The notes: generated by a model not told the origin, from the sequence alone. A stretch of DNA of 35,684 bases from Planctomycetota bacterium (GCA_030749235.1 JASMKM010000099.1:1-35684), one strand, 5' to 3'. Positions 59-22,478 are shown, counted from the first letter of the stretch. Numbers and translations are program-made.

Positions 59-1816
59 TTAGTGGTAGAAACGCCAAGCCGGAGGATTGTCCTTCGGCAG
101 GCTGGTTCCCTTCAAGGCCGCACGGATGTACTCCACTGGAATCGAATTCTCGCGCAGGATGGCATCGTGGAAATCACGCTCGCTCCAACTGGCCCCTTCG
201 ACTAGGTCACGATGCAGCGAAAGGACCTGCAGGCCGCCAAGCATGTAGGCCGCTTGATACAGCGGACCATACCCACCTTGGATTGACCGACGTACCTCGG
301 CAGTGGCATTACGGCGTTCATGGCCAACATTCTCGACCAAGAAGTCCACGCATTCCTCCGGAGTCCAATTGCCCAAGTGGAAGTTCAGCGAGAACATGAT
401 GCGTGCGCAGCGGTGCGTGCGCCAGAACAGCATGCCAATCTTGTCGTCGGGCGTGGCCGGGAAGTCCAGATCCCACAAGCGCATCTCCCAATAAAGCGCC
501 CATCCCTCGACTAGGAAAGGCGTGTAGAAGGCTTGGCGATGTGGCGCCCAACGATCCGCCATAAAGCCTTGCATGTGATGCCCCGGAATCAACTCATGCT
601 GCACAGTGGCGCGTGAGTAGTGATAGTTGTTGCCACGCATGGTCATCATCTTGGCTTCGTGCGACATCGTATCGGTGGGGTAGGAGATCGAGATGACCTC
701 GCCGCCGGTGAAGTAGGGCGAGAACTTCTGACGCTCCGGTGTCATCATTTGCATGCGCCAGCTCTCCTTGGCCAACTCTGGGATGGTCATCAAATTGCGC
801 GCCTCAAGGAATTCGATGGCCTCCTCGGCAAGGAAGTGAATCATCGCAGGTTGGCTACCAGGGGATGGGTGGACCTTCTTCACCACCTCTTGCGCCTCAC
901 GCCAATCACCATTGAGGCCCATCTCATCGGCGGCCTTCCTGCGTTCCTCCATGCACCACTCGAACTCGCTCTGGGCAATCTCTAGCAGCTCTTCCGGCGT
1001 ATAGGCGATGCGCTCGAACGCCAACTCGGCTAACAAGGCCTCGCGACCTATGGGATTGCCAATCAGGCGATCCTGATCGTTAGGGTCGATGCCCCCCAAG
1101 TCCTTGGTGAGGTACTTCGCATAGGATTCCAAAGCCTTGTTCAGATCCCTCCATGGGGCGGCGCACCACCATGTGAAGACCGGGTCGTAACCGTCGCGAT
1201 AGGTCGCCCAACTTTGCAGCGAACGACGCAAGCTGTTCACTTGGCGACTGACGCGCTGCGCCTCCGGTGCACTCAACTCCGGCTTCTCCTGTTCGAATCC
1301 GCTGCGGGTCTCCTTGATCGCTTCCATGGCAGCGGTCAACACCTCGGCCATCTCGCGCGGGTCTACTTCCTCGCGACGTGACTTCGCCTCTAGGATTGCA
1401 ACCAGCGGTGGCACGAAGGGCACCAAATGGGCGGATTCCTGATCACGCCGATGTTGAATCCTGGAGGACTCCAGGTCATGCTCGATCATGTTACGTAGCA
1501 GATGCCAATCGATCTGCGAGCGTGCATCGAGTGCGGCGTAGTCGATATTCTCGAGCTCGTCGAGCCAATCCTGCTGCAGGCGTTGCATTCGCTGCAGCCC
1601 GACTTCGGAGAAGGGGAAGGACCATAGCCGACCGAGCGAACCACGATCGGCTTGGTATTGGGCGATCAGTTCCTGAGTCGTGGCCGGAGCCAACTGTGTT
1701 CCGGGGGATTGTGCGAAGGCGCTGGCGATTGCCAGGGCTGGTCGGGCCGCTAGGGCGGAGGTCGCACCTAGACATAGGGCGGTCGGAATCAGAAGCAGCA
1801 GGAGGGAGGCACGCAT
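59..1816 (-). CDS. Secreted DUF885 family putative metallopeptidase
   Basis: The product is a 585-residue exported protein of the DUF885 family, whose members are usually treated as zinc metallopeptidases or carboxypeptidase-like hydrolases. The N terminus has a hydrophobic signal segment (about residues 3-24, ending in AxA-type sites near ALAA and AFA). The family hallmark HELIPGHH is at residues 407-414: His407-Glu408 would form the zinc/catalytic HE pair and the PGHH completes the motif. Length is normal for the family. The ATG at 1816 was chosen because a TAGGCT hexamer ends 6 nt before it and it precedes the signal peptide directly. It is divergent from the MBL lipoprotein gene with only 41 bp between the starts. 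The peptide substrate cannot be read from sequence. Confidence 0.9.
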   Translation of the reverse strand: MRASLLLLLIPTALCLGATSALAARPALAIASAFAQSPGTQLAPATTQELIAQYQADRGSLGRLWSFPFSEVGLQRMQRLQQDWLDELENIDYAALDARSQIDWHLLRNMIEHDLESSRIQHRRDQESAHLVPFVPPLVAILEAKSRREEVDPREMAEVLTAAMEAIKETRSGFEQEKPELSAPEAQRVSRQVNSLRRSLQSWATYRDGYDPVFTWWCAAPWRDLNKALESYAKYLTKDLGGIDPNDQDRLIGNPIGREALLAELAFERIAYTPEELLEIAQSEFEWCMEERRKAADEMGLNGDWREAQEVVKKVHPSPGSQPAMIHFLAEEAIEFLEARNLMTIPELAKESWRMQMMTPERQKFSPYFTGGEVISISYPTDTMSHEAKMMTMRGNNYHYSRATVQHELIPGHHMQGFMADRWAPHRQAFYTPFLVEGWALYWEMRLWDLDFPATPDDKIGMLFWRTHRCARIMFSLNFHLGNWTPEECVDFLVENVGHERRNATAEVRRSIQGGYGPLYQAAYMLGGLQVLSLHRDLVEGASWSERDFHDAILRENSIPVEYIRAALKGTSLPKDNPPAWRFYH

Positions 1817-1822
1817 TTCAAG

Positions 1823-1828
1823 AGCCTA
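1823..1828 (-). promoter_or_regulatory. Putative -10 box, leaderless promoter of the DUF885 gene
   Basis: On the minus strand the hexamer TAGGCT is followed by exactly 6 nt and then the ATG at 1816, so the expected transcription start is the A of the start codon. No clear TTGACA-like -35 is visible. Confidence 0.5.
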
Positions 1829-1845
1829 GCAGCCTCCGCCGCGGG

Positions 1846-1851
1846 CATACT
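1846..1851 (+). promoter_or_regulatory. Putative -10 box, leaderless promoter of the MBL lipoprotein gene
   Basis: CATACT followed by 6 nt and the ATG at 1858. It deviates from TAnnnT at the first base but keeps the same spacing as the other promoters here. Confidence 0.45.
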
Positions 1852-1857
1852 GTGAGC

Positions 1858-2868
1858 ATGTCCATTCGTGCCGCCATGCTAATCCTGTGCTTACTGGTCA
1901 GTTGCGCAAGTTCGCCTTCGACAGATTTCTCCGATCCATCGGATGCAGCGGATTCATCACTTGCACCATTCGAGTCCGACGTCCTCGAGTCAGGTGACTT
2001 CTGCTCACGAGCCTACTTGCAGGTCCTGGGCGTGGCACAAGATGCCGGTTACCCGCATTCAGGATGTTATGAAGACCATTGTCAACGCGCTTGGCAGGAT
2101 CACAAGCTGAAGCGATATGTTTCCTGCTTGGCACTTGTGGATGGTGTTGCCAAACGGAAGTTCCTGTTCGACGCCACGCCGGACCTGCCTGCGCAGTTAC
2201 AAGCCTTGCAAGCCAATGCCCCGGACGAACAGGTGGCCTTGGAAGGTGTGTTCCTGACTCACGGCCATATGGGGCACTACACCGGACTGATGCATTTTGG
2301 ACGTGAAGCCCAAGGCGCCGATGGCATCACCGTCTTCGCCATGCCACGCATGTTCGAATACCTAGTGAACAACGGTCCATGGAGTCAGTTGGTATCGCTC
2401 GGCAACATCCGGCTCGTTGGCCTTGCGCCAGGCCGCGTGCAGCAAGTGACCGAAGACCTGCAGGTTACGCCGCTGCAGGTTCCTCATCGCGACGAGTTCA
2501 CTGAGACCGTTGGCTTCCTCATCGAAGGGCCGCACAAGACTGCGCTCTTCCTGCCCGATATCGACAAGTGGCATCGTTGGCAGACCGATATCCGTACGTT
2601 AATCGCAGAAGTGGATTACGCTTTTTTGGATGCCACTTTTTTTGCTGCCGATGAATTGCCAGGTCGCGACATGAGCGAGATTCCACATCCTTATGTGGAG
2701 GAGAGCTTTGCCTTGTTCGCTGACCTGCATCCGGAGCAGAAGGCCAAGGTCCATTTCATCCATTTCAATCACACCAACCCCTTATTAATCGATGGAAGTG
2801 AGGCGCAGCGGGAAGTGGAGGCACGTGGTTTTCGTATCGCCAAGCAGGGGATGATCCTGCCGATGTGA
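1858..2868 (+). CDS. PqqB-like MBL-fold metallo-hydrolase lipoprotein
   Basis: This is a 336-residue metallo-beta-lactamase-fold protein resembling the set often named coenzyme PQQ synthesis protein B-like. Visible landmarks are the N-terminal GVAQDAGYPHSGC block, the metal motif THGHMGHYTGL, a downstream VPHRDE histidine, LPDIDKW and the late HFNHTNP. The usual HxHxDH motif reads HGHMGH, so the Asp that binds the second metal is Gly. The ATG at 1858 gives a short lipoprotein signal with Cys at LLVSC; a longer in-frame reading from 1378 would only add sequence antisense to the DUF885 gene. No other PQQ genes are nearby, so a role in PQQ synthesis is not supported. It is more likely a periplasmic or membrane-anchored hydrolase of unknown substrate. 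Confidence 0.85.
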   Translation: MSIRAAMLILCLLVSCASSPSTDFSDPSDAADSSLAPFESDVLESGDFCSRAYLQVLGVAQDAGYPHSGCYEDHCQRAWQDHKLKRYVSCLALVDGVAKRKFLFDATPDLPAQLQALQANAPDEQVALEGVFLTHGHMGHYTGLMHFGREAQGADGITVFAMPRMFEYLVNNGPWSQLVSLGNIRLVGLAPGRVQQVTEDLQVTPLQVPHRDEFTETVGFLIEGPHKTALFLPDIDKWHRWQTDIRTLIAEVDYAFLDATFFAADELPGRDMSEIPHPYVEESFALFADLHPEQKAKVHFIHFNHTNPLLIDGSEAQREVEARGFRIAKQGMILPM

Positions 2869-2904
2869 GGACCGAATCACGCCTGCTTGGGCATGACGGT
2901 GCAG

Positions 2905-2910
2905 TAGGAT
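2905..2910 (+). promoter_or_regulatory. Putative -10 box, leaderless promoter of the PhoD-like gene
   Basis: TAGGAT followed by 6 nt and the ATG at 2917. It lies in the 48-bp gap after the MBL gene, so the phosphatase may be transcribed separately. Confidence 0.55.
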
Positions 2911-2916
2911 GGCGCG

Positions 2917-5625
2917 ATGTTCCCGCTCAGTCTGCTCCTCGTCATCATCCCCTTTCCGCAGGCGGTCGTGGAGGTTCCTGCAGCCACTACCTTGCGCACG
3001 CGTACTGCTGTCGGGCCGCAGCAGGAAAGTCCTGAGCGTACCTGGGTTGGTCCGCAATTCTGGGCCAACCGTCTGCAGGACTGGCGTCTCGCCGATGGTC
3101 GTATCGAATGCGTCGAGCAGGCGGCGAACTATCCTTTGCGTACCTTGATGATGCTAGATAGGAGTGTCGTCGCCGGCCAAGGCGACCTGAGCCTAGAAGT
3201 CATCACTGGTGCGATCGATGAGGTTCAAGGGGACCAGACGCCGCGCGGCTTCCACGGTTTTCTAATCGGTGCCGGCGGCGATCATGTGGACTATCGCATT
3301 TCCGCGCAGGTGCATCACCGTCCGGCAGCCGATGGCGGCCTGTTGGCGACGGTCGATAGCCATGGCCAAGTCGCCTTCTACGACAACAGCAAGCGACTCG
3401 GTGCAGGCGGGCGTTGGTCGATCGGCGGCGCCTTGAAGGACGGTGAGTTGCAAGGCATCACTCCCGATGCGATGACCATGAACACCGGCTTGATCCAGGA
3501 CAACCTTACTTGCCTCTTGGTGCTCGAAATCCAATCGCAGGCGGATGGCTACACCCTGGAACTCAAGGCTTATGACGCCCAGGACCAGCAACGCGAAAGG
3601 CCAATCTCGAGTGCAGTCCTGCGCAGGCGCACGGCCGACAACATTGACGGTCTAATCGGTCTCGTCTCTCATCTTGGCCCTGCCGACGGCAGCGCTGGTC
3701 ACTGGTTCCAGCATATGCACAGCACGGGCGACCTCATCCAGCACTTGCCAGCACGTAGCCACGGCCCGGTGCATGGTGTGCAATACACCACCAGTCATGA
3801 CATCCTGAAGCTCACCGCGCAGCTGCCGCCAATGGCACCAAGCGATGGTGTCCACGGTGTCCTGCAAATCCGTCCGAGCGGAACCGATGAGGAGTGGCGC
3901 GAAGTAGCCACCACCATCTTGCGGCGCGACTCCTGGACCTTACCCTTCCGGGTGGAGGAGTGGAACGCTCAGGTTGCCACCGATTTCCGTGTGAACTACA
4001 AATGGCAAGACCTGCATGGCCAAAACCAAGACAGTAGCTATGAGGGTGTCATCGCCGCGGAGCCCGAGGCCAACGAGGAGATGGTGGTGGCTTCGCTGAA
4101 TTGTGCCAAGCACTACGTCGGTAACCTTGCATGGAACCACGACAGCATCTGGTTTCCGCATGCCGAGGTGGCGGAGCGCGTGGCGTTGCACGATCCGCAT
4201 TTGCTCTACTTTGCCGGCGACCAACTCTATGAGGGAGACATCGATCCGGTGGATGCGCGAAACGTCGGCAAGCTTACCCTCGATTATCTCTACAAGTGGT
4301 ATCGCTGGCAGTGGTCCTTCGGCGAGCTCACGCGCAAGCTGCCCACCGTCACCATCCCGGATGATCACGATGTCTATCAAGGCAACCTGTGGGGGGCGGG
4401 TGGTCGCAAGGCCGTCGCAGACAAGAAACGAGGTCTGACTGCCCAGGATTCCGGTGGCTATCGTTACGACGCATCCTTTGTGAACATCGTGCATGCCACC
4501 CAGACTTCGCATTTGCCCGACCCCTTCGACCCTACCCCTTGCGATCAGGGCATCTCGGTCTATTTCACCGAGCTTGATTACGGCGGCATCTCTTTCGCCA
4601 TCGTCGGCGATCGTCAGTTCAAGGATTCGGCCAGCGACGTGGTGCCGGAGGGCAAGGTTAAGAACGGTTGGTTTCAAAACCCCGACTTCGACCCACGCGA
4701 TGCCGACGTCGATGGTGCGCGCTTGCTCGGTGAAGGCCAACAGCAATTCCTCAGCCATTGGGCGCGTGATTGGGACAATCAAGCGTGGATGAAAGTGCTT
4801 TTGTCGCAGACACCTTTCGTGAACGTGGCGACCATCCCCGAGAAGGCCGAAGGTGGTGGGGTGTTACCGTCGCTGCCAATCCCAGAGCCTGGCATCTATC
4901 CCGAGGGCTACAAGTTTGCGGCCGACACCGACTCCGGTGGATGGCCGCAGACACCACGCAATCGAGTCGTGCGCACCTTACGTTCCTGCTTCGCCGTCCA
5001 CCTCACCGGCGACCAGCACCTTGGTAGCCTGGTCGAGTATGGTGCGGATGAATTTCGCGATGGTGGCTTCGTCTTCACTTCGCCAGCCATCGCCAACACT
5101 TGGCCGCGCCGCTGGTGGCCACCCTTCCATGGTGGCAATCCCGAACCTGGCGCGCCGCATTACACCGGCGATTTCCGTGACGGCTTTGGCAATGCCATGA
5201 CCGTATGGGCCGTCTCCAATCCGGTCCAGGCTGGCTTCAAGCCGACCGCCCTCTATGACCGCACGCCGGGTTACGGCATCATTCGCTTCCAGCCCGCCAG
5301 CCAGAGCATCGTCTTTGAATGTTGGCCACGCTGGGAGGATCCGCTCGACCCGAAGGCGCAGCAATACGGGGGCTGGCCGCGCACCATCTCGCGGCTCGAC
5401 AACGGCCCGGCCAAGGTGCACGATTGGCTGCAGGTTCCTGAGACTGGCATCGAAAATGGCGTGGCCAGTGTTTTTCTCCTACAGGCTGACGGCCAGGAAT
5501 TCTGCTTCAGCTTGCCCTGTGATGCTTCTGGCGTGCGCCTACCGATTTATCGCGCTGGAGATTACGCCGTACGCGTTGAGGGAGAGCAAGAGCAACTCAA
5601 GTGGTACTGGTTTGAGGGCCGGTAA
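2917..5625 (+). CDS. Secreted PhoD-like metallophosphatase
   Basis: The 902-residue product is an exported phosphatase of the alkaline phosphatase D / PhoD-like superfamily, expected to hydrolyse phosphate esters with a dinuclear metal centre outside the cytoplasm. A signal peptide occupies about residues 1-21. The first ~380 residues resemble a beta-rich region of unclear function. The catalytic part follows, with SLNCAKH, LLYFAGDQLYEGD, IPDDHDVYQGNLWG and the late HLTGDQHLG. The DDHD and GDQH motifs are typical metal ligands of the family. The protein is long for PhoD (usually about 500-550) because of the N-terminal region and a C-terminal beta domain. Start at 2917 is supported by the signal peptide and upstream TAGGAT. 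Whether it is a phosphodiesterase or monoesterase is not decidable here. Confidence 0.85.
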   Translation: MFPLSLLLVIIPFPQAVVEVPAATTLRTRTAVGPQQESPERTWVGPQFWANRLQDWRLADGRIECVEQAANYPLRTLMMLDRSVVAGQGDLSLEVITGAIDEVQGDQTPRGFHGFLIGAGGDHVDYRISAQVHHRPAADGGLLATVDSHGQVAFYDNSKRLGAGGRWSIGGALKDGELQGITPDAMTMNTGLIQDNLTCLLVLEIQSQADGYTLELKAYDAQDQQRERPISSAVLRRRTADNIDGLIGLVSHLGPADGSAGHWFQHMHSTGDLIQHLPARSHGPVHGVQYTTSHDILKLTAQLPPMAPSDGVHGVLQIRPSGTDEEWREVATTILRRDSWTLPFRVEEWNAQVATDFRVNYKWQDLHGQNQDSSYEGVIAAEPEANEEMVVASLNCAKHYVGNLAWNHDSIWFPHAEVAERVALHDPHLLYFAGDQLYEGDIDPVDARNVGKLTLDYLYKWYRWQWSFGELTRKLPTVTIPDDHDVYQGNLWGAGGRKAVADKKRGLTAQDSGGYRYDASFVNIVHATQTSHLPDPFDPTPCDQGISVYFTELDYGGISFAIVGDRQFKDSASDVVPEGKVKNGWFQNPDFDPRDADVDGARLLGEGQQQFLSHWARDWDNQAWMKVLLSQTPFVNVATIPEKAEGGGVLPSLPIPEPGIYPEGYKFAADTDSGGWPQTPRNRVVRTLRSCFAVHLTGDQHLGSLVEYGADEFRDGGFVFTSPAIANTWPRRWWPPFHGGNPEPGAPHYTGDFRDGFGNAMTVWAVSNPVQAGFKPTALYDRTPGYGIIRFQPASQSIVFECWPRWEDPLDPKAQQYGGWPRTISRLDNGPAKVHDWLQVPETGIENGVASVFLLQADGQEFCFSLPCDASGVRLPIYRAGDYAVRVEGEQEQLKWYWFEGR

Positions 5626-5757
5626 TGCACAGGGGTCTTGGATCTGCGGTGAACATTTCAACCCAACCCGCAGCGCGTGTGCAAGCTCTGAATACCCAGG
5701 TGCTTGTGGCTGGCATGAACGATTCTGTATTCACCTGAGTGGAACCCGTTGGGGTGG

Positions 5758-5763
5758 TATATT
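5758..5763 (+). promoter_or_regulatory. Possible -10 box upstream of the Asp-box lipoprotein gene
   Basis: TATATT lies 30 nt before the ATG at 5794, predicting a leader of about 24 nt. The ATG at 5768 just after it is out of frame. The 168-bp gap otherwise shows only a weak CTGCGG/CCGCAG inverted repeat. Confidence 0.35.
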
Positions 5764-5793
5764 AAATATGGCGCTTCCCCGCACCATTTCTCC

Positions 5794-8397
5794 ATGACTT
5801 CCATCCTTCTCACTACCTCGACGCGCCGTTGGAGCTTCGGCGCTTTTGTCCTGCTCACTCTGGCCACAGCATGCTCCGTGCAACCCGAGTACAGCGAACC
5901 GTCGCTGACTGGGGCCATGCCGCGCCCGGCCGAATCGGAGGAGAGTGAAGAGAACCAGCACGCCCGTGAAGAGTGGATTGAAGGCATGCATCGCACCGCG
6001 CCGGGCGTGGATTGGCGAGCCATCGAGGAATCCAATCTGCGCGCTGCGCAAAGCGAGCGGGAAGCCGCCTTGATGAGTGGTGCATCTACCACTGGCAGCT
6101 GGAACGAGGTTGGCAGCACCAACTTGGCAGGCAGTACCTTCGTGACCGTGCCTTCTACCGACGGCAACGAACTTTACATTGGCTCCGCCTTGGGTGGCGT
6201 ATTCCGCGGCCCAGCGGATGGCAGTGATTGGCAAGCGATCGGTGACGGAGTCTACGGCGGCGCCCATGTGTTGCTCGCCATCCCACCTTCGGGTGGCGGC
6301 CAGGACATTATCTTGCGTGGCAGCTCCGGCTTCCTTTGGCGAAGCACCGATGGCGGCTTGACTTGGCAGAATCCCACCGGCATCACCGGCTTCTCGACCG
6401 TGCGCCGTTTGATCAAGATCAACGATGCCCAGCAGACAGTCTTCGCTTTGGTCTGGAAGTCGAACTCCTGGCAGTTGTTCCGCTCCACCGACCGTGCCGC
6501 TTCCTTCAGCCATATCCAGACCCTCAACGGTCAAGCCGACATCTGGTCCTCACGCACTGCGGTGGGCGACCTCTTCCTGTTCGAGAACAATCGCCTGTTG
6601 CGTTCGTCCAACCTGGGTACGACTTTCTCGAGCTTCGGCAACAGCCTTGGCGTGACACCATCGGACGTACGTTTCGGTGGTCATGAATCGGCCGGGACCA
6701 GCACCTTCAGCGTGGCCGCTAGGGTTAGCGGGACTTGGCAGCTGTATCGCACGACCAACTCCGGCAATAGTTGGAGCAACCCAAACGACATGCCCGAGAT
6801 GTGGAGCGCCTTCTGCACGTCGGCAACCGATGCCAACTTGTTGGTCTACGGTGGCGTGGAGTTGTGGGTCTCGGACAACGGCGGCACCAGCTTCTCGGCC
6901 TTCAACTGGTGGTGGGAGCATCCCGGAAACCGTCAGCATCGTCTGCACGCCGACATGATGGGGGTTAGCGTGATCGAGGACAACTCGCTGCCGAGTGGCG
7001 AACGTTGGTTCATCAATTGCCATGGTGGTACCTATGAATCCACCGACCAGCTCAGCACCGTGAATTGGTTGACCGGCGAAGGGCTGGGCGTGAGCCAGTA
7101 CTACAGCACCCACACCAGCCGCCGCGACCCCAAGTACATCCATGCTGGTTCCCAGGACCAGGGCTATCAATCCGGCGCGCTCGGCACTCCAGGCACCAAC
7201 GGTCCATGGGCGGAGTTCATCGAGGACATTACTGGTGACTATGGTCACCTTTCTTCCAGCGACGGCAGCCATGACCTGGTCTATTCTGATTACCCCGGCT
7301 TCGTGCTAGTGGTGGCCGGTGAACCGAACCACACGCTGTACACGGTCGATTTCCCCAGCGGCTTCGGCGGGCAGTGGTTGCCCTTCATGGTGGCCGATCC
7401 TGAGAACAAGAACGCCTTCTACTTGTGCGGGACGCGCTTGTGGCGTTATCAGCGTGTGGGCACCAGCGGTACCTGGAACTACAGCCAGGTCGGCAATACC
7501 AGCTTTAGCCAGCCGCTGACAGCCATCGCCTTCTCACCGCTCGATCCGAACTACGCTTGGTGCACCACCAGCAACGGCAAGATCTACTACAGCACTGACA
7601 AGGGCGTGAACTGGACTCAGTCCAATAGCAACGGGCCTGGCGCACATTACTTCTACGGCACCACCATCATCGCTTCATCCACCAACATCAACGAGGTCTG
7701 GGTGGCCGGTTCCGGTTACAGCAACCCGCCGGTGATGTACTCCGGGAATGGCGGCACGTCCTTCTACGACAAGAGTGCCGGCTTGCCGAGCACCCTCATC
7801 TACGGCATGTGCGAGGCACCGGACCAAAGCGGTTACATGTACGCAGCTGGACAAAGCGGTGCTTACGAATACGATCCCAGCACGCAGACCTGGGCGAGCA
7901 TCCTTGGTGCTGAAGCGCCGCTGACCACCTATTGGTCGGTCGAGGCTGTGCCGTCGCAGAACATCATCCGCTTCGGGACCTATGGTCGCGGCATCTGGGA
8001 TTACTACTCCGACTCGGCCGGTTTCTTCCCTTACGGTGAGTTGCGCGACGAGCCGACCCACTTGCCAATCGATCCTGATGCCCGCCCCATGATCGGCACA
8101 TCGGTGACCTTCTCGATTTCCGGTCTGCAATCCTACGCCAACGGTTTCCTTTCGGTGTCGACAGCTTCGGATGATTCCATCATGTTCGGCGGCAGCCTTC
8201 TGGTGGACCTCAGTCAGGAAGTGGTGCGTGTGCCCTTCAGCGCCAACATCTGGGGCAATGCGACGGTGAGTCTGAGCATCCCTAACAATCCGACCCTGGT
8301 CGGCAGCGAGTACTTCCTGCAGCTTGCCGCTCGCGATACGCGCCAGCCATTGGGGTGGGCGATGAGTCACGGCTTGCGCGCGGTAGTAGGTCAGTAA
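5794..8397 (+). CDS. Asp-box (BNR/sortilin-like) beta-propeller lipoprotein
   Basis: This gene encodes an 867-residue exported lipoprotein built from Asp-box repeats of the sialidase/VPS10 type. At least six repeats of form S-x-D-x-G-x-T-W are visible, for example STDGGLTWQ, SNLGTTFSS, TNSGNSWSN, SDNGGTSFS, STDKGVNWTQ and SGNGGTSFYD, consistent with a large beta propeller. The last ~120 residues look like a separate beta-sandwich. The ATG at 5794 starts a lipoprotein signal with Cys at LATACS; the reading frame is open 45 nt further upstream but that segment lacks signal character. No sialidase catalytic residues (Arg triad, FRIP) are obvious, so a binding or structural function, or glycan recognition at the surface, is more likely than sialidase activity. 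Confidence 0.8.
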   Translation: MTSILLTTSTRRWSFGAFVLLTLATACSVQPEYSEPSLTGAMPRPAESEESEENQHAREEWIEGMHRTAPGVDWRAIEESNLRAAQSEREAALMSGASTTGSWNEVGSTNLAGSTFVTVPSTDGNELYIGSALGGVFRGPADGSDWQAIGDGVYGGAHVLLAIPPSGGGQDIILRGSSGFLWRSTDGGLTWQNPTGITGFSTVRRLIKINDAQQTVFALVWKSNSWQLFRSTDRAASFSHIQTLNGQADIWSSRTAVGDLFLFENNRLLRSSNLGTTFSSFGNSLGVTPSDVRFGGHESAGTSTFSVAARVSGTWQLYRTTNSGNSWSNPNDMPEMWSAFCTSATDANLLVYGGVELWVSDNGGTSFSAFNWWWEHPGNRQHRLHADMMGVSVIEDNSLPSGERWFINCHGGTYESTDQLSTVNWLTGEGLGVSQYYSTHTSRRDPKYIHAGSQDQGYQSGALGTPGTNGPWAEFIEDITGDYGHLSSSDGSHDLVYSDYPGFVLVVAGEPNHTLYTVDFPSGFGGQWLPFMVADPENKNAFYLCGTRLWRYQRVGTSGTWNYSQVGNTSFSQPLTAIAFSPLDPNYAWCTTSNGKIYYSTDKGVNWTQSNSNGPGAHYFYGTTIIASSTNINEVWVAGSGYSNPPVMYSGNGGTSFYDKSAGLPSTLIYGMCEAPDQSGYMYAAGQSGAYEYDPSTQTWASILGAEAPLTTYWSVEAVPSQNIIRFGTYGRGIWDYYSDSAGFFPYGELRDEPTHLPIDPDARPMIGTSVTFSISGLQSYANGFLSVSTASDDSIMFGGSLLVDLSQEVVRVPFSANIWGNATVSLSIPNNPTLVGSEYFLQLAARDTRQPLGWAMSHGLRAVVGQ

Positions 8398-8464: not shown

Positions 8465-8995
8465 TCAAGACCCCTTAGTCAGCCGACGCTTCTTCTTGCG
8501 GCGTCGCATGCCATGCGGCAGCCACCACAGGTAGACGCCGGAAATCCACAGGAATAACACCACGAGGCCGCTCGGCAGGAAGATCCACATCTTGGCGCCA
8601 TCATGGAAGAAGGATCCCTCATGTAAGCTTTCGATCAGGTCGGAGCGGCGCCTAGCCACCTGCAGCACAGCACCACTGCTGGCGTCGAGCTGGACCTCGA
8701 TGCCGTTGTTGCATTGCACCTTCAGCATGCCCTCGCTGGGTCTTACGTCGAGGCGGTCGATGTCTTCCCAGCTCGCCACTTCCGCCTCGGGATTAGCTGC
8801 AGTGACGCTGAGTATCTGTTCGAAGGACAGCTCCGGTACCGTCCGGGCGCCGGTCTGGGTAGAGGGCTGGATCCACGTGAACTCCTTCTTCATTTGCAAG
8901 AGCAAGCCTGACACAATCACGATCAGGAAGGGGAGGGCAATGACGATGCTGCCGATTCGGTGCCAGCGGCGGGCTAGAGGAGGGTAAATGGACAT
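8465..8995 (-). CDS. PepSY-associated TM helix protein
   Basis: The 176-residue inner-membrane protein matches the PepSY-associated TM family. It starts with RRWHRIGSIVIALPF leading into the first membrane helix (about residues 12-33), has a soluble PepSY-like middle (about 45-115) and a second helix (about 136-160) with a very basic tail. Such proteins often accompany iron/siderophore reduction or respiratory genes, and full-length relatives have four helices, so this is the short two-helix form. It is divergent from ctaB, and both may be expressed with heme or metal metabolism. No clear -10 box was found before its ATG; TTCTCT at the leaderless spacing is a poor match. Confidence 0.8.
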   Translation of the reverse strand: MSIYPPLARRWHRIGSIVIALPFLIVIVSGLLLQMKKEFTWIQPSTQTGARTVPELSFEQILSVTAANPEAEVASWEDIDRLDVRPSEGMLKVQCNNGIEVQLDASSGAVLQVARRRSDLIESLHEGSFFHDGAKMWIFLPSGLVVLFLWISGVYLWWLPHGMRRRKKKRRLTKGS

Positions 8996-9060
8996 GGTCG
9001 GAGAGAAGTGGAGGGATGCCGACGTAGGAACCGGGAGGGTGCGGCCTGTCGATAAAGGAC

Positions 9061-9066
9061 TATACT
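9061..9066 (+). promoter_or_regulatory. Putative -10 box of ctaB
   Basis: TATACT lies 11 nt before the GTG at 9078, predicting a leader of about 5 nt. It also argues against the longer in-frame start at 8988, which would lie upstream of the promoter and overlap the divergent gene. Confidence 0.45.
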
Positions 9067-9077
9067 TTCACCCGAAA

Positions 9078-9989
9078 GTGAGCCAACCCACTACTTCCGC
9101 TTCCGCTTCGCGCTGGTCCGCCTTCGTGGAGCTCGGCAAGCTGCGCCTGTCCTCGCTGGCAATCCTTGCAGTCTTTGCCGGCTTGCTGCTTGGCACGCCG
9201 AACCTGCCAACCTTGCCATCCTGGTGGGTAATCGCCGGCTCCTTGCTGGGCACGGCGATGGTCGCCGTTGGTGGCAATGCCATGAACATGTGGCTGGAAC
9301 GCGACACCGACGTGCACATGGAGCGCACCGAAGGTCGGCCAATTCAATCCGGTCGCCTCAACCCCGCCGACGTCTTCTGGTTCGGTCTCCTGAATGCTAT
9401 CGGCGGCGTGGTGGTTTTGGCACTCACCACCAACCTGCCCGCCACCTTGTTTTGCGCGTTAATCTTTGTGCTGTACGTCGGCGTGTACACGCCGCTGAAG
9501 CGACGCAACACCTTGAACACCCTGGTCGGGGCAATCCCGGGCGCCCTGCCGCCGGTGGTCGGTTACGCCGCCAGCTCCGGACAGGTGGACATGCATGCAG
9601 GTGTACTGTTCCTGATTCTGTTCTTCTGGCAGATTCCGCACTTCCTTGCCATCGCTTGGCGTTACAAGGATCAATACCGCAACGCGGGCTTGATGATGTT
9701 GCCCTCGGTCGAAGGTACCGGCCTGCACACCGGCAAGCACATGATGACCTACGGCCTGTGTCTGGTTGGCGTGAGCATCATGCCCGCCTTGCCCGCCTTT
9801 GGTTTCTCTAGCCGTCACTATGTCTATTCGGCGGTGCTCCTGGGCGTACTTTTCCTGGCGGTGATTTTCGAGGCCGCGGTGTTGCGACGCCCCGCCGGGA
9901 TGCGCCGCTGCTTCATCGTCTCAATCATCTACCTTCCATTGCTGTTCGTGGCGATGGTCACCGACCGCCTCACGCCTCATGTCGCTTAA
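9078..9989 (+). CDS. ctaB: Protoheme IX farnesyltransferase (heme O synthase)
   Basis: The 303-residue polytopic membrane protein is a UbiA-superfamily prenyltransferase that adds a farnesyl group to heme B, giving heme O for heme-copper oxidases. The prenyl-diphosphate motif is NMWLERDTD at residues 70-78, followed by MERTEGRP; the second conserved block is WRYKDQYRNAGLMMLP. About eight hydrophobic helices can be traced. GTG at 9078 was chosen as start because it follows a TATACT box and begins just before the conserved FVELGKLRL block. The frame is open to an ATG at 8988, which would overlap the divergent PepSY gene. The sco gene follows after 36 nt, likely in one operon. No oxidase subunits are in the window. 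Confidence 0.93.
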   Translation: MSQPTTSASASRWSAFVELGKLRLSSLAILAVFAGLLLGTPNLPTLPSWWVIAGSLLGTAMVAVGGNAMNMWLERDTDVHMERTEGRPIQSGRLNPADVFWFGLLNAIGGVVVLALTTNLPATLFCALIFVLYVGVYTPLKRRNTLNTLVGAIPGALPPVVGYAASSGQVDMHAGVLFLILFFWQIPHFLAIAWRYKDQYRNAGLMMLPSVEGTGLHTGKHMMTYGLCLVGVSIMPALPAFGFSSRHYVYSAVLLGVLFLAVIFEAAVLRRPAGMRRCFIVSIIYLPLLFVAMVTDRLTPHVA

Positions 9990-10025
9990 TCCCCAACCGT
10001 TGCAATCCTGAAGTCCACGCACATC

Positions 10026-10682
10026 ATGCACCTCTCGCGATCCACTTCCCGCTCCGGCGTCCTTATCATCAACGTCACCCTGGTGGCCCTGCTGGTCCTG
10101 GTCTGCGCCACGTTTGCCGCTATTTACTTGCGCCCAGGCGGCGTTGACACCGGCCGTCCGAAAGGGGTACTGCCACCCATTTTCCACACCGCGCCGGCGT
10201 TCGAGCTCACCAATCAGGCGGGGCAGTCGTTCACCAAGGAGAACCTCAAGGGTCGCATCTGGGTATCGAACTTTATGTTTACAACCTGCCCGAGCATCTG
10301 CCCAATGCTTACGGCGCGCATGAAAATCATCGCCGACAAGGTTGCATCTTGGGACGACGTGCACCTGCTGTCTTTCTCGGTCGATCCCGAGATGGATACT
10401 CCGGAAGTCTTGCACCGCTATGCCGAGTCCTATGGAATTGACCACGACCAATGGTCCTTCCTGACTGGCGACTACAAGATCATGCAAGGCGCCATCGAGG
10501 AGGGTTTCAAGATTAGCATGGGTGGACCAATCGACCGTAGCGACCTCAACTCGGTAATGCATGGCACGCGCTTCGTACTTGGAGATGGCGACGGCAATAT
10601 CCGCGGCTACTACGACGTTGAGACCGACGAAGGCGTGGAGTTATTGGTGCACGAAATCAAGCTCCTGCGTCAGGCGCAGTAG
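10026..10682 (+). CDS. sco: SCO1/SenC-family copper chaperone
   Basis: The 218-residue membrane-anchored thioredoxin-fold protein belongs to the SCO1/SenC/PrrC family, which delivers copper to the CuA site of cytochrome c oxidase or keeps its cysteines reduced. An N-terminal membrane helix spans about residues 12-35. The copper ligands are present: Cys88 and Cys92 in TTCPSICP and His179 in VMHGTRFVLGD. It follows ctaB by 36 nt and shares its role in oxidase assembly. There is no good Shine-Dalgarno. Its last 26 nt overlap the 3' end of the convergent REC/PPDK_N gene. Confidence 0.92.
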   Translation: MHLSRSTSRSGVLIINVTLVALLVLVCATFAAIYLRPGGVDTGRPKGVLPPIFHTAPAFELTNQAGQSFTKENLKGRIWVSNFMFTTCPSICPMLTARMKIIADKVASWDDVHLLSFSVDPEMDTPEVLHRYAESYGIDHDQWSFLTGDYKIMQGAIEEGFKISMGGPIDRSDLNSVMHGTRFVLGDGDGNIRGYYDVETDEGVELLVHEIKLLRQAQ

Positions 10683-13600
10683 CGCCCGGTTGCGGCTTTA
10701 GAATCACGCCATGCGCGGCCTTGCCGTCCAGCATTACGTTGATTGGCAGCTCCAGCGGCACATGGCGCACGCCATGATCACCGACCTTGTGCGAGTTCAG
10801 CGAACGTAACCACTGCATGTCGAGGATGCCGTCGCCGGTCTCCGGGTTGACGGTGAAGTAACCCACGCGGAAGGAAGTCATGTTGTGGAAGAAGTGCGAA
10901 CCTTCTGATGGCTTGACGTGGACATCTTCGAAGCCGGTTTCGACGACTACTCGCGCGCAGTTAATGTCGGCCCATTCCACCGGCAGCCCCAGCCACGGAT
11001 CGGACGAACCCCAACGGCCAGGACCAATCAACAGGTACTGCTCACCGACTTTCTCGAGCTTGGCGTTGATCTTGGCGATGTCGCTGGCGGCACCAGTGGA
11101 TTGTGCGCGATCGAAATGGTCGGGGTCTATGTAGACCACATGCTTGATGTTGCGGATGAAACCATTGCCGAAGGCACGATTGCTGGCGCATAGAATCGAG
11201 TCCTTGTCGATCTGCGCGAGCTCGATATCGACCTCGGTCTCGGCCACGGCCATCGGACGCACCTGCAGCAGGTTCAGCTCCCGGATGTTGCTGTGGTCGT
11301 TGTCGAGTTCCACGGCGAACTCTACCTCAATTGGACAGCCCATCGCGGCATGACCGATTTCCAGAACCTGATTAACTACTTCCGCCAACGGGAACCCGCC
11401 GTGCTTGAGAATGTTGGAGAAGGTCACTAGGCGGGTTCCTTCCCGCGAGACACCATCGGTGATGCGGCCGTCGTTTGGTAGCCATGTCGACGCGACCGCC
11501 GCCAAAGTGCCGTCCTTATCGGCGTCGGCAATGGGATAGCGGCAAGGGTGCAGCGGGCCACTGGGGCCGCCGTCGGGGGAGGAAACTTCGTGGCCTTCCG
11601 GGTTGTGAATCGATTCGGTGGCCATCGGCAAGGCGTAGAAATGACGCTGCGCGTTCTCGAGGATGTCGTCCACCGAGGAGAAGTCAGGGATACTCTGCGG
11701 ATAGCGAGGGCAGAAACGTAAGCCACCTTCGCCACCGACTACCATCGTGCCCAAGCCCAAGGCCACTGCGCACACGCCGTCTTCGGGGCCATACTGTCCA
11801 TGCGGATAATAGTTGTGTGATCGCGCCACACCGGAGAAACTCGGGTAGAAACGCTCGCCGCGCTGGCGGCCGACCAGCGGTTGGATGATTACGGCCATCT
11901 TCTCCTCCTCGTGGCGATAGGCAGTCGCGCGTAAGTAGGAGCGCGCGCGATCGGAGTAGGTCGACGCGTAGATGGTCTTAATCGCATCGCAGAGCTCGAC
12001 TAGGCGTTGATCCTCGGTGCCGACGTTGCGAACCATCACCGTCTCGTAGATTCCGGCAAAGGGCTGATGATGCGAATCCTCCAGAAGGCTCGAAGAACGT
12101 ATTGCCAACGGCCCCTGCATGACGCGCAGCAACGCGCGCAGATCAGAGACCACGCTGGCTGAGAAGCGCCCGGCCAGAAAACGCTCGAGGCGCTCGTCTT
12201 CATCTAGTCCGCCACCCAGCGCCATGCGTTGCAGATGATTGCGGCGCATGAAGCGATCAAAGATCACGGTGGTCAGCACCACAGTGGGCGGGATCACCAC
12301 GCGCACGCTGACGCGGTCGTTGGCAGGGCTGAAGTTCGCCAGCGTCGAGTTGGCAAAGGCCAAGCCGCGCGCCTTGCCGCCCAAGGAACCAGTGCCGATG
12401 CGGGCGAAGCTGATGGTGTCGTCGAAGGTGGTGCGGTGGAAATCGACGATGGCACCACGTTGTGCACGTCGGCGTGAACGATGTACATGCTGGAGCAGGA
12501 AGGCGCGCAGTTCTTCGGCGTCGTCAAAGTCGCTGACCACCTTGGCGGCGAGGCGATTGGCTAGACGGAACTCGGTGCGCGCGCGTAACCAGGTGGAGAA
12601 ATCGTTGCGCTTGGCATGGCCCACGAGGGTGTCGGCCGACACCCGCTTGATCGCCGCTTCCATTTCACGCACGGTGCGTGCCTGCGTCTCTACCGAATGG
12701 TCGCTGCGTCGGAAACGGAAAGGACCGAAGCCGAAGTTGTTGAGCAGGAAGTTGCGCATCTCGAGGTGCAACACTTGGCTTCCCTTGAGCACGAAGCTGG
12801 AGTTCAACTTATTGGCATGCTCAGAGAAATCGGCGTTGGAGGACTGCAGCAGGATCGGCAGATGCGGTGCAGTGCGGCGCACCTGTTCGACGAAATCCAG
12901 GCCGGCTTTCATGTCGGGCTTGCGCCCTTGTACAGATGGCAGGCCCACATCCGAGATGATGCCGAGCAGGTGCTCATGATGTTCCTCGAAACGGTCGATG
13001 GCGCTGCGCAGGTCGCGTGCCAGCAGCACTTTCGGCCGCGCGCGCAGGCGCAACATTTTGTCGTATTGGTTGATGCCCTCCGACAACACGCTACGTGACT
13101 GCTCTAAGATCTCGGTGTAGAGCAGCGGCAGGTAGGACGACAGGAAGTTCAGCGAATCCTCGACCAGGAGGATGGCACGCATGCCTACGCGCTTGCAGTC
13201 ATGCAGGCAGTTGGCTCGATCTTCGACCAGCGTCACGATGGCATTGAGGATGCGGCTGTCGCCAGTCCATAGAAACACACCATCGAAGGCAGATTGGTTG
13301 CGGCCGCGCAACAGATCCTTGATATGCGAGTTGTCGTAGCCGAGTAGCACCACCGGCACCGCTCCGGCATGGGCCTTGATCTCCTCGGCCAAGTCGACCG
13401 GGTCCAGGCCACTCACCTGCGGAGTAATGATGACCATCGAGTTCTCACGCGTGGTGGAGATGCGCTCGATGGCCTCGCCGGCATCGGAGACGCGCACCAT
13501 GGTGGGGACGCTGTCGTCTACCGGCGCGTCGGCGCCCTGGCCGAAGGTGGTGGTGCGGCCGTCCTCCTGGAGAATGAACGCGTCATACATGCTCGAGACC

Positions 13601-13695
13601 AGGATGACTTCCTGGACGCGATAAGGCATCAAGGCCCGGAACCGTTGAAGACGCGTGTCGGGCTCGGTCAGTTGGAAGGGCGGGAAAAGAACCAC
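10657..13695 (-). CDS. Tandem REC-like plus PPDK_N ATP-grasp protein, function unknown
   Basis: This 1012-residue protein belongs to the large 'PEP/pyruvate-binding domain' group. Residues ~25-145 look like a degenerate receiver domain (EVILVSS, VIITPQVSG, PVVLLGYD). Residues ~170-310 form a second receiver with an acidic pair in LLVEDS, phospho-acceptor-like Asp in ISDVGLP (~246) and the late Lys in FVLKGS (~299). From ~430 to ~815 is a pyruvate-phosphate-dikinase N-terminal, ATP-grasp-like domain: GSLGGKARGL (~440), AIRSSSLLEDS (~532), LLQVRPMA (~812). A conserved-looking C-terminal block follows with LIGPGRWGSSDPW. The phospho-histidine swivel domain and the PEP-binding TIM barrel of PEP synthase are absent, so it is not a normal PpsA. 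The start is GTG; a TACGCT hexamer lies 8 nt upstream. An ATG at 13629 is an alternative start. Confidence 0.85.
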   Translation of the reverse strand: MVLFPPFQLTEPDTRLQRFRALMPYRVQEVILVSSMYDAFILQEDGRTTTFGQGADAPVDDSVPTMVRVSDAGEAIERISTTRENSMVIITPQVSGLDPVDLAEEIKAHAGAVPVVLLGYDNSHIKDLLRGRNQSAFDGVFLWTGDSRILNAIVTLVEDRANCLHDCKRVGMRAILLVEDSLNFLSSYLPLLYTEILEQSRSVLSEGINQYDKMLRLRARPKVLLARDLRSAIDRFEEHHEHLLGIISDVGLPSVQGRKPDMKAGLDFVEQVRRTAPHLPILLQSSNADFSEHANKLNSSFVLKGSQVLHLEMRNFLLNNFGFGPFRFRRSDHSVETQARTVREMEAAIKRVSADTLVGHAKRNDFSTWLRARTEFRLANRLAAKVVSDFDDAEELRAFLLQHVHRSRRRAQRGAIVDFHRTTFDDTISFARIGTGSLGGKARGLAFANSTLANFSPANDRVSVRVVIPPTVVLTTVIFDRFMRRNHLQRMALGGGLDEDERLERFLAGRFSASVVSDLRALLRVMQGPLAIRSSSLLEDSHHQPFAGIYETVMVRNVGTEDQRLVELCDAIKTIYASTYSDRARSYLRATAYRHEEEKMAVIIQPLVGRQRGERFYPSFSGVARSHNYYPHGQYGPEDGVCAVALGLGTMVVGGEGGLRFCPRYPQSIPDFSSVDDILENAQRHFYALPMATESIHNPEGHEVSSPDGGPSGPLHPCRYPIADADKDGTLAAVASTWLPNDGRITDGVSREGTRLVTFSNILKHGGFPLAEVVNQVLEIGHAAMGCPIEVEFAVELDNDHSNIRELNLLQVRPMAVAETEVDIELAQIDKDSILCASNRAFGNGFIRNIKHVVYIDPDHFDRAQSTGAASDIAKINAKLEKVGEQYLLIGPGRWGSSDPWLGLPVEWADINCARVVVETGFEDVHVKPSEGSHFFHNMTSFRVGYFTVNPETGDGILDMQWLRSLNSHKVGDHGVRHVPLELPINVMLDGKAAHGVILKPQPGATAPDAGA

Positions 13696-13764: not shown

Positions 13765-15132
<1,368 letters not shown>

Positions 15133-15199: not shown

Positions 15200-15832
15200 A
15201 TGAATCGCTTGTTGTCGGCCGCCCTTGCCTTGGGTTGCATGATTTCATGCAGTGCACCAAACTCAGCCGACGACGAGGCCATCGTTTGGCAGGATTTGCT
15301 CACCGAAGAGAACATCACATCTTGGCAGCCCAGCGCCTTCGGGATCTCCGGCCGCGAAGAGATCCTGCCTCATGCGATTCGTCTGACCATGGGCAATCCC
15401 TTCACCGGGGTCGCTTGGAGCGGGGAGCCGCTGCCGACGGAGAACTACGAAATCGAGATCGTCGCACGCAAGGTCATGGGCAATGATTTCTTTTGCGGCC
15501 TGACCTTCGCCGTAGGGGAGGACCCTTGCACCTTCATCGCCGGCGGATGGGGCGGCAGCATCACCGGACTCTCGTGCATCGACGGCAAGGATGCGTCGGA
15601 AAACGCCACACGTACCTTTCAGCGCTATGACGTGGGGGAGGATTACACGATCCGAATCCGCGTCGAGGAGCATCGAGTCAGGGCTTGGCTGCAAGACGGG
15701 CTTGTGGTGCAGCAACCACGCGACGGCGTGGACTTCTCAGTGCGCATGGAGGTCGAGCTATCGACTCCATTCGGCATTGCCTGCTACAACACCGAAGCGT
15801 TGATCACTGCGTGCCGCATCCGCCGCCTATAG
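15200..15832 (+). CDS. DUF1080-like (3-keto-disaccharide hydrolase fold) lipoprotein
   Basis: The 210-residue lipoprotein has a signal with Cys near residue 17 (CMISCS). The mature part resembles the DUF1080 / concanavalin-like beta-sandwich family, common in Planctomycetota, with some members acting as 3-keto-glycoside hydrolases. Supporting blocks are ENITSWQPSAFGI, YEIEIVARKVMGNDFFCGL, TIRIRVEEHRVRAWLQDG and the closing STPFGIACYNTEA. The sulfatase gene starts 9 nt after its stop, and the pair may act on the same sulfated polysaccharide, which is inference from position only. The stop codon TAG is also the first half of the sulfatase -10 box. Confidence 0.75.
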   Translation: MNRLLSAALALGCMISCSAPNSADDEAIVWQDLLTEENITSWQPSAFGISGREEILPHAIRLTMGNPFTGVAWSGEPLPTENYEIEIVARKVMGNDFFCGLTFAVGEDPCTFIAGGWGGSITGLSCIDGKDASENATRTFQRYDVGEDYTIRIRVEEHRVRAWLQDGLVVQQPRDGVDFSVRMEVELSTPFGIACYNTEALITACRIRRL

Positions 15833-19427: not shown

Positions 19428-21857
19428 ATGCATCGCTCCGTAGTGTTGTCCCTCTTCCTGGTCAGCCTGGTCACCTCGCTGCTTGCAGGTCAGGAACCAC
19501 CGGCGAGCGGGATGAACAGGATCGGCCCCGACGCGAGGGTCATGATTCTTGTTCCGGTCGAGGATCAAGTCACATGGCTGGACGACGCCTTCCTTTGTGC
19601 GATTCCAGCGGCCTTGCAGTTGGGCGAACGAACCGGCACCCAGGATCCAATCGTGCTTGCCGTCGAGGCTGAACAGCCATTTCGGCCGGAGCTCCTGGAT
19701 TTCTTGCGTCGCTATGAACCAACTAAGCTGATTTGGTTGGGGCCCGAGCTACCGGAGTTTCCAGTCAGTAAAACCGCACGGCTGGAAGCGATGCAAGTTT
19801 CGAGTGGTGAAATCGCTGCCGCCACCATCTCTACATATGCCTTTGCGGGTGGCTACGACAAAGTGGTTCTTTATGACTCGAGCAATCGTACCGATGCCTT
19901 GGTGGCTGCGGCCTTCGCCGCACGTATCGGCGTACCGTTGTTCCCGTGGAGCGGCAAGAAGTTTGCACTTGACACCCATAGGACCTTCGCAATGCAGGGC
20001 GTCAAGAAGGCTTACTTCATTGGCGAAGGTGAAGCACCAGTTATCGGCGCTTTCACCAAGGCTTCGACCACGCCAAGTGACAAGGATGTAACTTATCCTG
20101 GCGCAAGGGTGGAGCGAATCAAGACGGCGAAGGACGTCGCCCACTGGTTGACGAAGAACCGCCACCCTGTGGAGTACTTGGCGGTCGTGAATCCCGACGA
20201 TGCTAGCGCCGGGCGTGATCGCAATCTTGCCCTGGCCGCACCCTTGTTGGCGGCCGCTCATCAAGGCGTGGTAGTACCCATAGAGCTGGAGACCCATTGG
20301 AAACGCAGTTTCGTGGCATCGGAAATTTTGGAGAAGAAACCCAGCGGAGCCGCAGACAGCAGCCAAGGATGGCGCCAGGGTGTTATTCAGCTCGAGAATC
20401 ACAAGGACACGCCATTTGTGACCGGCATCGATTCGGAGGACGGTCGTTGGTGGATGCAGCTCGACCGCAATCGCGATGGTCGTTACAGCGGCAAGAAGGA
20501 GAAGCCGGTCTTTACTGGCGACAATTTCCCGTTGGCCGACCTCCATTGGACCGCCGACTTGGATGCCGATGAGAAGAAACGTGGGGGCGCAATCTGGATG
20601 ACTACGCCGACGGCATCCGAGATCCACGGGGAACTCGCCGACTTCCATAAGGCCATCAAGCACGGCGCCGAATACCTTTGCCTAGTCGGCTGGCCCGACG
20701 CCTTGCCGATGGCCGTGATTTCCCATGGTCAAGGAATCGATGCCGACCTGGTCTCCGACCTCCCCTTCGCGCAGACCGACGAGGATCCCTTCGTCGACCT
20801 ATCCCATGCGCGCTTTATCGCCGAGGACCTGGAGTCGGCCACCTTGTTGGCTTGCCGTGGTTTCGCGCGTGACGATTTTCCACAGCGCCATTGGGCGCAA
20901 AAGTTCGCCACCGCCGAGTGGGAGGAACTCAGTCAGACCACCCTTCCCGAGGCCGGCCTCGATTTTGCTGGGCATCATGAAGGTGAAAAACCATTTGATG
21001 AAGGATCTGCATTGGCCCAATCCGGCCTGATTCTCCACTCCTCGCACGCCATGTGGACTGAGATGGGCAAGACCTATCTTTGGGACAGCAACACTCTGCT
21101 GGCGCCGGCGATGGTTGTTTCGGGCGGGTGCAGCACGGCTTCCTTGGATCAAGATGATGAACGGCGATCGGTAGCCAGTCGATTGTTGAAAAACGGCGCG
21201 GTCGCTTTCGTCGGCAACTCGCGACGCGGCATTGCCCAACAGGAGCTGTTCCGGACCGAGTTCCTGAACGCCCTGTTCGCAGGCAATAGTCTTGGCGCAG
21301 CGCAACGCATTGCGCAGAACTATGTCCTGCTAGCAATGATGGAGAAGGGCCAGACCGAGTCGGGACCTTACTTCTACCAGATGTACCATCAGCTGGTGTT
21401 CGGCGACCCTGCCCTGCGGCTGGGCCTTCGCTTTGCCGAAACCGATCCGCCAGCGCGTGCGCAGGTCAATGGCACCAAGGTGCGCGTGGTCGGCCCGAAG
21501 AAGTGGCACCGCATGGAGTACATTCCGCTAGAGGAGTGGGGCTGCGTCTTCCCGAAATTGTGGGCATGGCGTGGCTCCGGCATCGGCGTGGAGAGCCGTT
21601 GGCATCCCGCCGACAAGCGCGACGAGGAGCAACTCCTATTTCACATTACTGTCCACACGCGGAGGAAGGTCAACAGCATCAAGCCGCTGAGCGACGTCCC
21701 TGAATCCCTCGGGTGGACCGGAAGCTGCGGGGTTGACCATCATGCCGACGGAAGCCGCAGCCTCTATTGGCGCGTGCGTTTGATCGACGCCGACAAGACC
21801 ACGGGCGAGGTGCGCGCCCAAGTTGAGGAGTTGGACTTCAAGTTAATTCGGGATTGA
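19428..21857 (+). CDS. Exported C25 (gingipain-clan) peptidase-like protein
   Basis: The 809-residue protein has a signal peptide (about residues 1-21). Residues ~35-220 resemble cell-wall-binding-repeat-2-like units, e.g. VVLYDSSNRTDALVAAAFAA. The C-terminal half looks like a caspase-fold C25 protease: a YLCLVGWPDALP strand, candidate catalytic His537 or His540 in ILHSSHAMW, candidate nucleophile Cys568 in VVSGGCSTASLD, and the family-like VFGDPALRL near residue 660. The His-to-Cys spacing of about 30 residues is close to that of gingipains. No C-terminal type IX secretion domain is obvious. Proteolysis at the cell surface or in the periplasm is the likely role, but the substrate is unknown and the assignment rests on motif placement. 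Confidence 0.7.
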   Translation: MHRSVVLSLFLVSLVTSLLAGQEPPASGMNRIGPDARVMILVPVEDQVTWLDDAFLCAIPAALQLGERTGTQDPIVLAVEAEQPFRPELLDFLRRYEPTKLIWLGPELPEFPVSKTARLEAMQVSSGEIAAATISTYAFAGGYDKVVLYDSSNRTDALVAAAFAARIGVPLFPWSGKKFALDTHRTFAMQGVKKAYFIGEGEAPVIGAFTKASTTPSDKDVTYPGARVERIKTAKDVAHWLTKNRHPVEYLAVVNPDDASAGRDRNLALAAPLLAAAHQGVVVPIELETHWKRSFVASEILEKKPSGAADSSQGWRQGVIQLENHKDTPFVTGIDSEDGRWWMQLDRNRDGRYSGKKEKPVFTGDNFPLADLHWTADLDADEKKRGGAIWMTTPTASEIHGELADFHKAIKHGAEYLCLVGWPDALPMAVISHGQGIDADLVSDLPFAQTDEDPFVDLSHARFIAEDLESATLLACRGFARDDFPQRHWAQKFATAEWEELSQTTLPEAGLDFAGHHEGEKPFDEGSALAQSGLILHSSHAMWTEMGKTYLWDSNTLLAPAMVVSGGCSTASLDQDDERRSVASRLLKNGAVAFVGNSRRGIAQQELFRTEFLNALFAGNSLGAAQRIAQNYVLLAMMEKGQTESGPYFYQMYHQLVFGDPALRLGLRFAETDPPARAQVNGTKVRVVGPKKWHRMEYIPLEEWGCVFPKLWAWRGSGIGVESRWHPADKRDEEQLLFHITVHTRRKVNSIKPLSDVPESLGWTGSCGVDHHADGSRSLYWRVRLIDADKTTGEVRAQVEELDFKLIRD

Positions 21858-21890
21858 CCCGCCCGTCGGCATGCGTCCTGCCAGTTACCC

Positions 21891-21956
21891 CTCAAAACTG
21901 TCCTGCGGAACATCTTTTTGAGCAGCAGCTGAAGAGGTTATTGTCTATCTCAGCTG
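21891..21956. repeat. Two inverted repeats between convergent genes
   Basis: CTCAAAA (21891-21897) pairs with TTTTGAG (21916-21922), and CAGCTGA (21926-21932) pairs with TCAGCTG (21950-21956). Each gives a 7-bp stem with an 17-18 nt loop. The second overlaps the 3' end of the release-factor-like gene. They may help end transcription from both sides but the loops are large and there is no clean T tract. Confidence 0.3.
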
Positions 21957-22466: not shown

Positions 22467-22472
22467 TTCCAA

Positions 22473-22478
22473 ATTCTA
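22473..22478 (-). promoter_or_regulatory. Putative -10 box, leaderless promoter of the GGQ protein gene
   Basis: TAGAAT on the minus strand, then 6 nt (TTGGAA), then GTG at 22466. It decides between the GTG start and the TTG two codons earlier. Confidence 0.5.

Follow-up and report, generated by a model that had tools for sequence, protein, structure and literature searches.

A tandem-receiver ATP-grasp protein linked to gdhA in several phyla is a candidate controller of glutamate dehydrogenase activity

Here, we describe a protein family, termed A-type (gene A), in which two tandem receivers, a helical linker, a PPDK_N-type ATP-grasp module and a conserved C-terminal domain are joined in one chain, and which very probably is a functional partner of glutamate dehydrogenase (GDH) or of related ammonium-assimilation enzymes. 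The family likely controls the activity of GDH, and we somewhat favour the reading that it is devoted to setting the activity of the GDH encoded next to it, gated by a phosphorelay and driven by the ATP-grasp module. Activation is the more likely direction of the change in activity. That the control consists in a covalent, ATP-driven modification gated by residue D249 is a tentative proposal, with slightly less than even chances. The member studied is encoded in a stretch of 35,684 nucleotides from a Planctomycetota bacterium (JASMKM010000099.1), hereafter the window, and its features are compiled in Table 1.

Table 1. Coordinates in the window of the A-type gene, its encoded domains and the adjacent gdhA gene
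Feature	Coordinates	Strand	Residues	Basis and remarks
A-type protein, REC-REC-helical-ATP-grasp-CTD	10657..13695	(-)	1012 aa, GTG start	ORF, PPDK_N 3.5e-37, full-length homologs, model
Receiver 1	13201..13614	(-)	28-165	without phospho-acceptor Asp; model, Foldseek, profile match to PDB receivers, residue counts
Receiver 2	12730..13182	(-)	172-322	canonical site, first helix extended; Pfam Response_reg 1.2e-5
Helical linker, DUF5752-like	12451..12723	(-)	325-415	Pfam DUF5752 8.5e-5, just under cut-off
PPDK_N-type ATP-grasp module	11224..12414	(-)	428-824	Pfam, Foldseek (rifampin phosphotransferase, HpeI and PPDK), conserved residues
C-terminal domain (LIGPGRWGSSDPW, PSEGSHFFHN)	10684..11223	(-)	825-1004	conservation in 71 sequences, model pLDDT 94.3
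gdhA, family-I glutamate dehydrogenase	13765..15126	(-)	453 aa	Pfam ELFV_dehydrog 2.9e-84

Full-length homologs of the A-type protein with 37-89% identity are present in Planctomycetota, Acidobacteriota, Desulfobacterota and Ignavibacteria. The Pfam match to PPDK_N covers residues 437-823 and lies above the cut-off, and that to Response_reg covers residues 212-291 and lies just under the curated cut-off. An AlphaFold2 model based on an alignment of 75 homologs reached a pLDDT of 87.6 and a pTM of 0.82, and Foldseek matched it to the tandem-receiver structures PleD (1w25, 1.3e-6) and 3luf (6.9e-6) as well as to the dikinase N-terminal domains 5hv3 (1.4e-11) and 9goj (5.3e-9). The receiver-1 part gave in addition a profile match to receivers in the PDB, and RedH and PigC were the best profile relatives of the ATP-grasp part. 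An earlier sequence-only reading had proposed tandem receivers fused to a PPDK_N/ATP-grasp domain, which the open reading frame, Pfam, AlphaFold2 and Foldseek corroborate, and all motifs listed in it (GGKARGL, AIRSSSLLEDS, LLQVRPMA and LIGPGRWGSSDPW) are found in the translated frame. Its further claim, that a swivel domain and a TIM barrel are missing, likewise holds: neither the swivel-His signature nor the PEP-barrel signature was detected in any of 75 homologs, with the PPDK of a related genome scoring positive for both as a control. The structure prediction and structural search that it had put forward as a check returned receiver folds and no intact swivel in the C-terminal part.

Since swivel and barrel were not found, PEP synthase and PPDK were rejected as identities of the protein. 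Like PPDK and PpsA, the A-type family has a PPDK_N ATP-grasp module, in which the motif residues agree, but it lacks their swivel phospho-His domain and PEP/pyruvate TIM barrel and adds receivers and a C-terminal domain of its own. The best structural relatives of its ATP-grasp part are rifampin phosphotransferase (5hv3) and HpeI (9goj), neither of which carries receivers or the A-type C-terminal domain. Rifampin phosphotransferase retains the swivel His domain, and together with HpeI and the prodigiosin ligase PigC/RedH it represents the users of a dikinase ATP-grasp module that do not employ PEP. To our knowledge, none of these three has a link to GDH. The existence of HpeI, a solved chain comprising the ATP-grasp part only, and the finding that the window genome contains no second PPDK_N gene would be in agreement with a PEP synthase or PPDK divided into separate chains, to which the A-type protein contributes the ATP-grasp part and other loci contribute the swivel and barrel. 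We regard this as highly improbable, given that no neighbour bearing a swivel or barrel was seen beside the A-type gene, that a relative of the family co-exists with a complete PPDK in genome G493, that the C-terminal domain occupies the place of the swivel in the chain, and that the nitrogen-enzyme neighbours described below do not fit.

In the ATP-grasp module, residues K441, R533, E790, E792, Q811 and R813 are kept in A-type proteins and also in a receiver-less sister family (B-type, see below), which mostly has Asp in place of E790. Assigned by motif, we take these residues to be the counterparts of K22, R92, D321, E323, Q335 and R337 of PPDK; in this motif-based correspondence the A-type ATP site departs from that of PPDK at one of six positions, with E for D.

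Among the 45 receiver-bearing homologs, receiver 2 contains D180, D249 and K304 without exception and E179 and S285 in 44 sequences, and thus shows the acidic pair, phospho-Asp, Thr/Ser and Lys of a response regulator. Receiver 1, in contrast, does not: Thr, Ile or another residue stands at the phospho-Asp position, and an invariant Trp143 takes the position of the Lys in these homologs. H360 and W369 of the helical linker are invariant. The tandem arrangement resembles that of the regulators PleD and 3luf, in which, however, the output is GGDEF and not ATP-grasp. No histidine kinase was identified in the window. At locus L010, two A copies enclose genes (3460-5156) for a LuxR-type response regulator and a histidine kinase of the HisKA_3 type, an arrangement that we do not take as evidence of pairing.

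When modelled alone (residues 818-1004), the C-terminal domain, with which the predicted chain ends, reached the pLDDT given in Table 1. In 71 sequences from both subfamilies, G893, R894, G896, G903, E919, S930, G932, H934, F935 and F936 are invariant, the alignment numbering having been converted to protein numbering by a shift of 817. A Foldseek search against the PDB gave no match with E<=0.001, its 50 best matches did not include any dikinase, and a profile search against PDB sequences gave weak, scattered matches only and no sequence relative. Judged by Foldseek with one predicted model, its fold appears to be new or to have diverged strongly. It stands where the swivel would be in a dikinase, and by eye GPGRWGSSDPWLGIPV resembles the swivel motif; the confident model and the outcome of the structural search do not support a shrunken swivel.

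These residues bear on the possibility that the A-type protein is a non-catalytic regulator, in which the ATP-grasp module solely senses ATP, ADP or AMP and GDH is bound stoichiometrically. In its favour, the protein has no known acceptor domain, and the presence of receivers and a helical linker hints at switching between conformations. Both families, however, keep six PPDK catalytic-site positions, beyond what ATP sensing would be expected to need, and H934 and R894 are invariant, and we therefore consider this possibility unlikely.

In the window, gdhA is located 69 nt upstream of the A gene on the same strand. We examined 36 further A-type copies, retrieved from other genomes by homology. 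A co-oriented family-I gdhA lies no more than 2.5 kb away in 31 of them and no more than 450 bp away in 30; counting the window copy, 31 of 37 are within the narrower limit. The set covers Planctomycetota, Acidobacteriota, Desulfobacterota and Bacteroidota/Ignavibacteria. The gdhA gene mostly precedes A and follows it in L008, L009, L116, L118 and one L096 copy. Two further linked cases are L130 and L133, with gdhA approximately 0.3 and 0.8 kb from A, respectively. The flanking DNA examined of L004, L005, L007, L103 and L117 (5 of the 36 copies) contains no gdhA. In the Bacteroidaceae-like G493 family, coordinates show A and gdhA directly adjoining each other in just some 13 of the 35 genomes with A, and in two members (G650 and G677) gdhA flanks A on both sides. 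Taken together, the gdhA-A linkage across phyla is strongly conserved, yet not universal. The sequence-only reading had valued the adjacency as a weak hint, an estimate that proved too low when the neighbouring genes were profiled across homologs as it had suggested, with family-I gdhA recurring beside A in several phyla.

With respect to other genes of the window, a UbiA prenyltransferase gene and a SCO1/SenC gene (8988-10682) are convergent to the A gene, the 3′-end of which overlaps SCO1 by 26 bp; the same pair adjoins A in L002 and L003. A 210-aa open reading frame without a Pfam match (15200-15832) is divergent from gdhA, and a protein with a C25 (gingipain-like) peptidase domain is encoded near a subtilase with a P-domain (19428-24648).

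Moreover, the two genes are distributed together. Among the sampled Bacteroidota, a family-I gdhA is present in 26/26 genomes with A and in 35/172 others (p 5e-16, phylogeny ignored), and among Planctomycetota in 10/11 and 37/138, respectively (p 4e-5, phylogeny ignored). The G493 family comprises 41 genomes, of which 40 contain gdhA and 35 contain A; all 35 with A have gdhA, and the sole genome devoid of gdhA is also devoid of A. Conversely, most sampled genomes with gdhA do not have A, and GDH in general thus does not need it. An NP[LIV]W loop insertion preceding PSATQNE is present in most GDHs from A-containing genomes (window 13765-15126, L136-L195) and mostly absent from other family-I GDHs. 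We rejected this combination as a diagnostic of the partner enzyme, as it is correlated (nearly all instances are in A genomes) but not exclusive, and may reflect ancestry.

The relation extends to paralogues. L098, L099 and L101 each contain two [gdhA, A] units, and their gdhA copies fall into two types, characterised by the NPxW loop and by SGPDG, respectively. In the tree of A sequences, six of the seven copies beside an SGPDG-type gdhA group in one clade, which also includes two copies from genomes with a second gdhA elsewhere. Mapped onto this tree, the gdhA-type label requires three changes, and none of 500 shuffles gave so low a value for the SGPDG group. The comparison of paralogues within a genome serves as a partial control for species history. 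These data indicate that gdhA and A were duplicated as a unit, with matched paralogue types.

This pattern also speaks to the alternative that the linkage reflects shared transcription only and that the A-type protein regulates another part of nitrogen metabolism. In line with this alternative, A is often unlinked from gdhA in the G493 family and five other copies are without a gdhA neighbour. Nonetheless, the occurrence of both gene orders and of a convergent arrangement, the joint duplication and the matched paralogue types would be unexpected, and we deem it very unlikely. Somewhat less remote, though still rather improbable, is a metabolic enzyme, such as a kinase or ligase that uses ATP, which acts on 2-oxoglutarate, glutamate or ammonia and is linked to gdhA by a common pathway. 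The catalytic residues are intact, and kindred ATP-grasp modules phosphorylate small molecules, including the best Foldseek matches 5hv3 and 9goj. However, no additional pathway gene recurs, the constant neighbours being GDH, glutamate synthase and glutamine synthetase, and the two fused receivers and the matching of paralogues with gdhA types fit a regulator better.

The sister family mentioned above, B-type, has the ATP-grasp and C-terminal domains in common with A-type at approximately 26-35% identity and carries no receivers. All 15 B-type loci viewed with wide flanks, a non-random sample in which several were picked for paired copies, place the gene beside GDH2, gdhA, split glutamate synthase or glutamine synthetase type III (GSIII). 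Split glutamate synthase genes adjoin it in L122 (8719-12839) and L126 (8331-12448), and GSIII in L125 (7924-10152). The order GDH2, short receiver-less A-type and B-type is found in Bacteroidota (L110, L111 and L114) as well as in Planctomycetota (L134, genome G050, 548-6370), and in L112 gdhA and a receiver-bearing A are located in between these genes. Some B-types possess a C-terminal nucleotidyltransferase in which the GS and SDxDL motifs are intact (L041 residues 972-1007; L070 residues 952-988), a domain type that is also found in GlnD. It is conceivable, albeit doubtful, that both families form a general ATP-grasp control of ammonium assimilation acting on GDH, glutamate synthase and GSIII in Planctomycetota, Bacteroidota, Acidobacteriota and Desulfobacterota, in which the target would be modified by way of a phosphoryl group carried on H934 and the nucleotidyltransferase of some B-types would contribute to the modification cycle, following a GlnD/GlnE-like logic with unrelated parts.

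For the A-type protein as controller of the neighbouring GDH, we envisage the following scheme. A histidine kinase or another phosphodonor, the presumed trigger, would phosphorylate receiver 2 at D249, with the Asp-less receiver 1 possibly acting as an interface. Phosphorylation would shift the helical linker and thereby switch the ATP-grasp module, which would bind and cleave ATP in a PPDK-like manner. The C-terminal domain, with R894, E919 and H934, may replace the swivel His domain and the PEP barrel as phosphoryl carrier or docking surface, and would modify or remodel GDH, the putative direct target, and so set its activity. The initial reading had envisioned a signal-gated ATP-dependent phosphotransferase or ligase with its own substrate. 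The intact receiver 2, the intact ATP-grasp residues and the missing swivel and barrel sustain its signal-gated, transferase-like part; in place of a substrate of its own, the adjacency, co-occurrence and co-duplication with gdhA, conserved across phyla, point to GDH as the partner. A dedicated modifier of a branch-point or nitrogen-assimilation enzyme has functional analogues in AceK, which acts on isocitrate dehydrogenase, and in GlnE/GlnD, which act on glutamine synthetase. The analogy is one of function alone: these proteins have other catalytic folds and no receivers, and we claim no homology, though some B-types carry the C-terminal nucleotidyltransferase.

Baggio and Morrison (1996), listed in PMC4539542, state in their title that GDH activity of B. 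thetaiotaomicron depends on one or more trans-acting genes downstream of gdhA. In G493, a 3.0-kb A gene is located 91 bp downstream of gdhA in convergent orientation. A separate 3-kb downstream fragment of B. thetaiotaomicron is reported to have restored the activity in E. coli. The 16S rRNA primer sites of G493 are presumably of the Bacteroides type; 6/8 genomes with a presumed Bacteroides-type site gave no PPDK_N match, and the primer site alone therefore does not identify the genus. As far as the 1996 title goes, its gene or genes and A have in common the place downstream of gdhA, with GDH activity as the effect named there, and A is perhaps the trans-acting gene of B. thetaiotaomicron. Within the literature collection searched, text searches for a GDH link of the A-type family, and by B. 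thetaiotaomicron locus tags, returned nothing. A published census lists the same named domain combination, compared by description, and gives no function, GDH link or C-terminal domain; this combination is probably the A-type family. As a partner of GDH, the family appears to be uncharacterised so far.

Our analysis provides a concrete candidate for the 1996 gene or genes, with a residue-level switch (D249) and catalytic hypotheses (K441, R533 and H934), and it draws attention to a conserved C-terminal domain for which Foldseek found no solved structural relative in the PDB. If the proposed role is true, nitrogen assimilation would be under post-translational control across several phyla, including gut commensals, and a dikinase-type ATP-grasp module would act on a metabolic enzyme under the control of a phosphorelay.
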